DNA of 29,757 nucleotides from a virus: positions 1-29,757 of IMG/VR virus record IMGVR_UViG_3300021093_002354; one strand, 5' to 3'. The stretch's first letter is position 1. Every line of letters starts with the position of its first letter. Shown here in pieces: positions 1-17,820 of the stretch. Position numbers and translations under genes: made by a program. Below the pieces are notes generated by a model that did not search any database, was not told where the DNA came from, and was given only the letters and a program-made list of their open reading frames with translations.

Positions 1-432
1 CTTATGGTCTGGAATGACTCGATCAAGCGCAACTCTTAGCATACCGTTAATGAGTTCTGCATCTTTGATCTCAATTTGATCATTGACACCGAACGAACGA
101 GTAAAGCTTCGTGTAGCAATTCCCTTGAATAGGTAATCGGAAGAGCTGTCGTCTTTTGTGTTACCTTTAATGATAAGCTTATTATCGGCAAGCTCAATAT
201 CAATTTCGTGCTTAGCGAATCCCGCTACAGCAATCTCAATTGCGTAGGAATTATCACCAGTCTTTTTGATATTGTATGGAGGATAGTTAGGAATGTTTTT
301 TGTTACATCGTCATGCAGCTTGGCAAGACGGTTAATTTGATCTTCAAACCCTACAAAGAACTTGTCTGCGTCTTTGAAGAGAACCTCTGGGTTAAGCATA
401 TTATTAGCAACAAAGTGTTTTAGTCCAGTCAT
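1..432 (-). CDS. Small heat shock protein, Hsp20/alpha-crystallin family (3' end cut by window)
   Basis: ATP-independent holdase chaperone that binds unfolding proteins. The 144 codons present begin at an ATG preceded by AAGGAG and run off the left edge without a stop. An alpha-crystallin domain starts near residue 47 (NYPPYNI), with the strand pattern typical of the family: AIEIAVAGFAKHEIDIEL, then DNKLIIKG, then a Phe/Arg-rich stretch (ATRSFTRSFGV) and the segment ELINGMLRVAL. The C-terminal I-x-I tail would lie outside the window. It sits about 10 bases downstream of the phasin-like gene and is probably co-transcribed with it. Hsp20 genes are common in marine T4-like phages, where a role in capsid assembly or host stress has been suggested but not settled. 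Family assignment is firm; the role here is inference. Confidence 0.9.
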   Translation of the reverse strand, partial: MTGLKHFVANNMLNPEVLFKDADKFFVGFEDQINRLAKLHDDVTKNIPNYPPYNIKKTGDNSYAIEIAVAGFAKHEIDIELADNKLIIKGNTKDDSSSDYLFKGIATRSFTRSFGVNDQIEIKDAELINGMLRVALDRVIPDHK

Positions 433-442
433 AATATTCTCC

Positions 443-670
443 TTACTTAGTAGTTGTAAAGACGCGCTTGGCGTCCATATTCATAGCAGCCATGCCTACT
501 GTAGTGAAGAAGTTAAATGTCTCTTGTCCCATCTTTTTAGCAAAAGATGTTTGAGCATCAATGTATGTCTGGAGGGGCTTTTTAAGTTCGTCGTTTGTTA
601 CGACTGTATTGACAAATTCTGTCTTGACGTTTTGGAATGAATCCACAAAATGGTTGTATACCGATAGCAT
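443..670 (-). CDS. Phasin-like small protein
   Basis: A 75-residue amphipathic, largely helical protein with no signal peptide. The central block TYIDAQTSFAKKMGQETFNF resembles the helical repeat of phasins, the proteins that coat polyhydroxyalkanoate granules, although cellular phasins are usually longer (100 residues or more). It starts with ATG after a good AAAGGAG site and ends about 10 bases before the Hsp20 gene. The long structured leader at 703-768 lies just upstream. If the assignment holds, the phage may act on host storage granules, or use the protein as a general amphipathic chaperone alongside Hsp20. The similarity is by eye and short, so another helical phage protein is possible. 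Confidence 0.45.
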   Translation of the reverse strand: MLSVYNHFVDSFQNVKTEFVNTVVTNDELKKPLQTYIDAQTSFAKKMGQETFNFFTTVGMAAMNMDAKRVFTTTK

Positions 671-702
671 ACGTTTCTCCTTTATTAAGCGAGTTTAAAA
701 TT

Positions 703-768
703 AACTACCCTAATATTAGGCATAGTTGTGTGAGGTGTTTCTAGACTGGCACATCCTCACAAGCCAGT
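703..768 (-). promoter_or_regulatory. Structured leader: H-type pseudoknot plus hairpin
   Basis: Read on the minus strand, ACTGGC (768-763) pairs with GCCAGT (750-745), and TGTGAGG (761-755) in that hairpin loop pairs with CCTCACA (735-729) downstream. This gives stems of 6 and 7 perfect base pairs with connecting loops of 1, 4 and 9 nucleotides, a textbook H-type pseudoknot geometry. Next comes an inverted repeat AACTA / CCTAATATTAGG / TAGTT (727-703). The ribosome site of the phasin-like gene follows about 20 bases later. No T-run follows, so a simple terminator is unlikely. The element could be a riboswitch, a protein-binding leader or an RNA-processing site. I recognise no known class in it. 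Confidence 0.5.
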
Positions 769-787
769 TCCCATCCCGGGGATAATA

Positions 788-1162
788 TTATATAGCTTTT
801 CGTACAAAAGGTTTCAAGTCCGGAGGTGAAAAAGTATCCGGCTTTACCACTTTACCAGTCTCTGGATTCTTGATTGCTTTCTTTGTCATGGGATCTAGCT
901 TAGACATATTGCTTCTGAACACTTCGTTCCATGCATTATGAATATCATATCCTTTGGCATGAGCGTATCCAATAGTAACCCAAATTAGATCGCAGATAGC
1001 ATCAAGCTGTTCTACGTCATCATTATTCATAACTGCTTCTAAAAATTCGTTGTACTCTTCCTCCATTAGACTCCTATACAGTCCAGGAATAGACTTATCT
1101 CCTAATGAAAGTTGATCAACAGCCTCCATAAAGGCTCTTACGTCAAGAAAAGGCAATGCCAT
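788..1162 (-). CDS. MazG-like nucleotide pyrophosphohydrolase (all-alpha NTP-PPase)
   Basis: A 124-residue all-helical protein with the metal-binding pattern of the MazG/PRA-PH superfamily: acidic helix EEEYNEF at residues 34-40 and a second acidic site D54-AICD58 in DAICDLIWVTIGYAHAKGYD. Such enzymes hydrolyse nucleoside triphosphates to monophosphates and pyrophosphate. In marine phages they are suggested to adjust nucleotide pools or ppGpp. The C-terminal region (NPETGKVVKPDTFSPPDLKP) looks like a substrate-lid extension common in phage members. It starts with ATG after GGGGG and overlaps the end of the small membrane gene upstream. The substrate cannot be told from sequence. A second member of the superfamily lies at 10691-11077. 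Confidence 0.75.
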   Translation of the reverse strand: MALPFLDVRAFMEAVDQLSLGDKSIPGLYRSLMEEEYNEFLEAVMNNDDVEQLDAICDLIWVTIGYAHAKGYDIHNAWNEVFRSNMSKLDPMTKKAIKNPETGKVVKPDTFSPPDLKPFVRKAI

Positions 1163-17744: not shown

Positions 17745-17789
17745 CAATAAAATCAATGAGTTAGCGCAGAAGATCCACGGAATCTGTGG
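17745..17789 (-). repeat. Promoter-upstream repeat, copy 2
   Basis: Second copy of the element at 2903-2947: CCACAGATTCCGTGG, 8 variable bases, CGCTAACTCATT and GATTTTATTG on the minus strand, 39 of 45 positions matching. Between it and the -35 box lie 23 bases that include the palindrome GGGAATTCCC (17735-17744), 10 bases more than at P1. A further TTCCGTGGA lies just beyond the element. Confidence 0.75.
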
Positions 17790-17820
17790 TGTTTCCAGCC
17801 AAAATTCCGTGGACTCTAGA

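Follow-up and report, generated by a model that had tools for sequence, protein, structure and literature searches.

A candidate ROSE-type RNA thermometer, preceded by an optional pseudoknot, in the leader of a phage hsp20 operon

Genes and features at the locus

The DNA analyzed here, referred to as the window, is a 29,757-base IMG/VR virus record of a T4-like phage whose genes lie mainly on the minus strand. A MazG-like gene is separated by 117 bases from a 75-aa ORF, and hsp20 follows as the second gene of the same operon (Table 1). The 75-aa product had been labeled phasin-like in the original prediction, but Pfam, PHROG and NCBIfam searches gave it no family assignment and the label has no support from them; we use phasin-type below only to refer to this protein and its homologues. 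Relatives of the protein were found in IMG/VR at 5 loci in one search and at 78 loci in another, and no DNA or phasin-type protein match to those of the window was found among cultured phages.

Table 1. Positions of genes and leader features in the window
Feature	Positions	Strand	Basis and remarks
MazG-like gene	788-1162		Upstream of leader
T4-type late promoter -10 element TATATAATA	786-794	(-)	Predicted; overlaps end of upstream MazG-like gene
5' box UCCCCGGGAUGGGA	769-782	(-)	Conserved in most relatives directly downstream of promoter
Pseudoknot stem S1, 5' strand ACUGGC	763-768	(-)	Sequence reading
Pseudoknot loop 1, U	762	(-)	
Pseudoknot stem S2, 5' strand UGUGAGG	755-761	(-)	Sequence reading, pseudoknot scan
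Pseudoknot loop 2	751-754	(-)	
Pseudoknot stem S1, 3' strand GCCAGU	745-750	(-)	Sequence reading, pseudoknot scan
Pseudoknot loop 3, CUAGAAACA	736-744	(-)	A-rich in the family (135/206 bases A)
Pseudoknot stem S2, 3' strand CCUCACA	729-735	(-)	Sequence reading, pseudoknot scan
Hairpin H3, AACUAU[G]CC-UAAUAUUA-GGGUAGUU	703-727	(-)	One base past pseudoknot; bulged G conserved
SD-sequestering hairpin, CUC[G]CUU-AAUA-AAGGAG	677-693	(-)	Bulged G; holds ROSE core U(U/C)GCU; predicted paired at 5-25 C
Shine-Dalgarno sequence of first gene, AAGGAG	677-682	(-)	Sequence reading
75-aa "phasin-like" ORF	443-670	(-)	First gene of controlled operon; homologues behind similar leaders
hsp20	1-432	(-)	Second gene of operon; truncated by window end; Pfam HSP20 3.5e-14, PHROG 432 2.6e-40

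Related leaders shared one order of elements, namely a late promoter, a 5' box, a variable middle, the hairpin H3, a U/A-rich stretch, the sequence ACUCGCU...AGGAG and the gene. The 5' box follows the consensus UCYC-N0-4-GGGAUGGGA, and a TATAAATA/TATATAAT-like promoter sequence was found within 34 nt upstream of it in 68 of the 79 box-bearing leaders. We infer that the leader transcript probably starts at the T4-type late promoter, that the 5' box is probably the 5' end of this transcript, and that the late transcript carrying the phasin-type gene and hsp20 would have positions 671-787 as its 5' leader.

Other elements were observed near some of these leaders. A PqqA peptide (PF08042, 2.7e-10; TIGR02107, 6.6e-11) was encoded just upstream at loci L010, L013, L016, L025, L032, L038, L049, L064, L075 and L079, and an H3-like hairpin was present in at least some pqqA leaders. 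PqqA is the precursor of PQQ, the methanol-dehydrogenase cofactor; because these phages encode it, their hosts are suggested to be methylotrophs or methanotrophs. At the locus of Prochlorococcus phage P-SSM2 (L345), positions 1-151 contained a manA RNA, a known family (Rfam RF01745, 128 bits), approximately 450 bases upstream of hsp20.

The hairpins around the ribosome binding site

Two hairpins with bulged G residues lie between the pseudoknot and the first gene. One of them, H3, is the palindrome that had been reported to follow within a base of the pseudoknot; the other, which pairs the Shine-Dalgarno (SD) sequence, was absent from the original prediction. Across the family the ribosome site forms the hairpin CUC[G]CU-loop-AGGAG, whose loops include GAAA, UUCG and UACG, and compensatory variants of this hairpin were found (GTC[G]CTT/GAGGAC and CTC[G]CTC/GAGGAG). 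The general form of H3 is Y-[G]-CC-loop-GG-R, and a 53-sequence alignment revealed compensatory changes in 5 of its 7 pairs, with the bulged G and flanking C invariant.

Because the sequences used for alignment A2 and model R1 had been chosen for the presence of CTCGCT, and thus carry a selection bias, the counts that matter are those from leaders selected by their proteins. The SD hairpin was present in all 54 phasin-type and all 76 hsp20 leaders of these sets, compared with 37 of 806 control gene starts. H3 and the SD hairpin occurred together in 74 of the 76 hsp20 leaders versus 7 of the 806 control starts, and 3 of those 7 were hsp20-like. For one of the 54 phasin-type leaders our script chose another, AU-rich hairpin as the best, and CTCGCTTAATAGGAG was present nonetheless.

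ROSE elements consist of two to four stem-loops (PMC4166951), and their core is the terminal hairpin, where imperfect pairing of the SD with U(U/C)GCU leaves a bulged G (PMC11182007). The window leader showed the same imperfect pairing around a bulged G (CUC[G]CUU-AAUA-AAGGAG), it contains two hairpins (H3 and the SD hairpin) of which the last carries the SD, and such leaders stand before a small heat-shock gene, either directly or, as in the window, with hsp20 as the second gene of the operon. The Rfam family ROSE_3 aligned with the window leader over its full length, at 17.2 bits (E 0.17 for the stretch), as the best of 4227 families. Neither this score nor those of the relatives (up to 29.6 bits) reached the ROSE_3 gathering score of 43, and we therefore call the leader ROSE-type and not a formal member of the Rfam family. 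The top ROSE_3 match genome-wide (E <= 0.08) fell at the hsp20 or phasin-type leader in C48C1, P-SSM2, Syn19 and three uncultured phages (G001, G003 and G007), and another genome, G015, gave a match of similar score. The match in P-SSM7 was at chance level and elsewhere than the hsp20 leader, and a ROSE_3 search with fast filters gave no match in the window record, P-HM2 or S-SSM7. Folding with ViennaRNA predicted that the window SD is ~90% paired at 5-25 C and opens no more than slightly on warming to 45 C; since its nearest-neighbour parameters are ill-suited to the non-canonical ROSE core and miss it, this result is neutral on thermosensing.

Among cultured phages, the leader was found before hsp20 in P-SSM2, P-SSM7, P-HM2, Syn19, S-SSM7, Melnitz and HTVC008M, and the host groups of these carriers are Prochlorococcus, Synechococcus, Pelagibacter and Methylophilales. 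The best match of model R1 was the hsp20 leader in P-SSM2, P-SSM7, P-HM2, Syn19, S-SSM7, C48C1 and Melnitz. The HTVC008M leader scored weakly and was seen by eye as CUUUGCUUU...AAAGGAGG, and T4, which is without hsp20, gave a weak match only. The genes behind the candidate thermometer were hsp20, phasin-type genes, dnaK (L245, L266, L306, L310 and L314) and rubredoxin (L125, L151, L252 and L332); the rubredoxin, Hsp70 and PqqA identities were confirmed by a protein-family check. Near-complete phages carried one strong copy of the leader, and two were present in G003, where the phasin-type and hsp20 genes lie apart. A general late-gene leader was considered and rejected, as there is usually one copy per genome. 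A narrow pattern for H3 and the ribosome binding site had no match in 84,980 bacterial and archaeal genomes, and therefore these contain no cellular copy with the exact spelling, while a broader pattern gave one chance match there, in Elstera, beyond the end of an unrelated gene. A ROSE-like leader was also observed before a gene for an 83-aa non-heat-shock protein with a probable signal peptide (MKAILAGLMASALIATPASALS..., L262).

Altogether, the conserved structures, the pairing of the SD and the association with heat-shock genes make it likely, in our judgment, that the leader acts as a ROSE-type RNA thermometer to which the pseudoknot adds an optional 5' domain. Its regulatory core would consist of H3, with its bulged G, followed by the hairpin that pairs the SD with the U(U/C)GCU motif. 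We infer that the SD would be buried and translation low at ordinary temperature, and that heating, or other melting of the weak bulged helix, would free the SD and permit translation of the chaperone operon. A thermosensor for hsp20 had been among the alternatives originally listed for the pseudoknot; a thermosensor does fit the evidence, but the likely sensor is the pair of hairpins at 703-727 and 677-693 and not the pseudoknot. The rubredoxin and phasin-type targets, which are not small heat-shock genes, are unusual for ROSE and count against this reading.

The bulged-G hairpins might instead be operators for a phage or host RNA-binding repressor of a chaperone regulon, with the pseudoknot aiding assembly and temperature being irrelevant. 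This would agree with the invariance of the bulged G in both hairpins and with the sharing of the hairpins by several target genes and by the two loci of one genome (G003). However, the SD hairpin alone hides the SD, the core fits the published ROSE motif, and the association is with heat-shock genes, and we consider operators of this kind unlikely.

The pseudoknot and the variable middle of the leader

The middle of the leader contains a pseudoknot (as in the window), module B, both, or nothing. The pseudoknot was correctly placed in the leader of the phasin-type and hsp20 genes by the original prediction, and its geometry was described exactly: minus strand 768-729 reads ACTGGC-T-TGTGAGG-ATGT-GCCAGT-CTAGAAACA-CCTCACA and forms two stems without mismatches (6 and 7 bp) and three loops (1, 4 and 9 nt). 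With a score of 34.0 it ranked first among the H-type pseudoknots of both strands of the 29.8-kb window, ahead of a runner-up at 33.5, and 200 dinucleotide shuffles of the pseudoknot region produced no equal. The runner-up is an intergenic hairpin, CCACGGAAT...ATTCCGTGG, at window positions 17750-17820 on the minus strand, and another inverted repeat, GGGGAATTCCCGGGGAA..TTTCCCC, comes after it.

Conservation of the pseudoknot was assessed by a shuffle test on leaders, using 79 distinct box leaders with the ribosome-site motif downstream, of which 41 had room for a pseudoknot. Thirty of these 41 contained one at a shuffle p<=0.05, and 29 did so at p<=0.01. Stem 1 was mostly 6-7 bp and loop 1 mostly 1-2 nt, and the stem sequences were diverse (ACTGGC, CGTAGTT, AACCAGC, ACATGG, ACTAGC, ACAAGG). 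The two interleaved stems that define the H-type class were kept through compensatory change in the 30 leaders, including the complementarity of S2, such that related leaders have different stems and the same topology. No sequence conservation was found inside the pseudoknot, where stem and loop 1 sequences change without constraint and loop 3 keeps only its A-richness. Judged by these comparisons, selection is acting on the structure of the pseudoknot and not on its sequence, which therefore disfavors a ligand-binding core within it. Two pseudoknots each were read from the sequences of L004 and L035.

Module B is a pseudoknotted RNA with an invariant ACCUUA hairpin loop and a 3' hairpin CUGG..GUAA..CCAG, and it was found in over 50 variants (e.g., L004 3853-3943 and L042 1872-1948). 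It looks aptamer-like in its sequence features; it had no Rfam match, and module A/B leaders searched at a loose cutoff gave nothing relevant. Only the long form of module B would allow kissing between its loops ACCUUA and UAAGGU.

In marine cyanophages, L058 and L209, the leader has H3 and the SD hairpin but neither a 5' box nor either of the middle modules, so that the pseudoknot and module B are additions to the core. The box-pseudoknot unit can also stand alone, since in L162 (2925-3010) the 5' box and pseudoknot lie directly before an ordinary SD, without H3 or the SD hairpin. The downstream gene there is a 92-aa ORF (MSNMTPFEIRLELLKMAKDML...) that differs from the thermometer targets, and this one case suggests that the pseudoknot may have a function of its own. 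In the ROSE-type thermometer that we propose, the 5' box and pseudoknot would be an optional and interchangeable 5' domain. Most likely the pseudoknot would give the mRNA a rigid 5' end that protects it against 5'-dependent decay, and it would also insulate folding by preventing wrong pairings between the thermometer and the sequence upstream of it. We offer this role only tentatively, as the weakest step of the proposal.

Alternatively, the pseudoknot or module B could be a ligand- or protein-sensing domain placed on the thermometer, making it a two-input regulator. The strongly conserved, aptamer-like loops ACCUUA and GUAA of module B, and the mutual replaceability of the pseudoknot and module B, are consistent with such a domain; however, the free variation of stems and loop 1 leaves the pseudoknot no conserved binding pocket, and many leaders have neither module, so that a second input seems improbable. 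Poorer still are the prospects of H3 as an intrinsic terminator that makes the pseudoknot transcript a separate small RNA. Many relatives do have U-rich sequence after H3, but the U-run is missing or broken in others (L012, L021, L209 and the cyanophages), H3 retains the bulged G, and the RBS hairpin lies downstream in every case. Finally, a preQ1 (or SAM) riboswitch aptamer, suggested by the H-type pseudoknot and by the queuosine-type genes that the original prediction ascribed to the phage, has next to no likelihood, given that no Rfam family, riboswitch or other, matched the window at gathering level, that the best preQ1-II match in the leader was a chance one (14.1 bits, E 8.3), that SAM-II had no match in the window or leader, and that the family lacks a conserved core.

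Significance and comparison with known systems

Previous studies reported hsp20 to be core in T4-like cyanophages and common in large freshwater phages, and whether phages have it for heat tolerance or for capsid scaffolding is not settled (PMC7674155). If our reading is true, a ROSE-type switch before hsp20 would mean that phages couple chaperone synthesis to temperature, which is directly testable in cultured phages, e.g., Syn19, P-SSM2, HTVC008M and Melnitz. Such leaders would add a large family of phage thermometers, including pseudoknot-bearing leaders, and would extend ROSE past small heat-shock genes. A wider generalization, which we regard as rather doubtful, is that T4-like aquatic phages near-universally control their chaperone regulon (hsp20, dnaK, phasin-type and rubredoxin genes) by ROSE-type thermometers, and that freshwater lineages have made composite regulators of these by adding interchangeable pseudoknot modules in front, of which one might serve as a second sensor. 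The open-access literature, to which our search was confined (subscription journals and preprints lay outside it), described neither a ROSE element in a phage nor a thermometer at a phage hsp20 gene.

Phage RNA thermometers named in a 2024 paper are lambda cIII, SPbeta blyA and Caudoviricetes sigma70; the paper counts blyA as just the second to be found in a phage genome and adds another (PMC11182007). Like the leader described here, these are phage-encoded 5' leaders predicted to gate translation by temperature. However, none is ROSE-type, cIII being a conformational switch and the other two being relatives of the fourU agsA thermometer, and none is on a chaperone gene.

The autoregulatory pseudoknot of T4/T2 gene 32 is likewise compact and H-type, its loop 1 is also a single base, and it too lies in the 5' leader of an mRNA of a T4-like phage. 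The likeness is in geometry only, as the gene is another one and the window has structured RNA downstream where gene 32 has an open binding tract. The preQ1 and SAM-II riboswitches share the H-type pseudoknot and A-rich loop, whereas the window family is without a conserved aptamer core and without an Rfam match.

The closest resemblance is to ROSE_3 (RF02523), in which a bulged-G hairpin (GAUGCC..GGGUC) is followed by a bulged-G ACUCGCU..AGGAG hairpin that hides the SD in the leader of a small heat-shock gene. In contrast to this bacterial ROSE family, the leaders described here belong to phages and score below the Rfam cutoff, and their thermosensing is predicted from sequence. They also add a 5' pseudoknot or module B and stand before dnaK, phasin-type and rubredoxin genes as well as hsp20.
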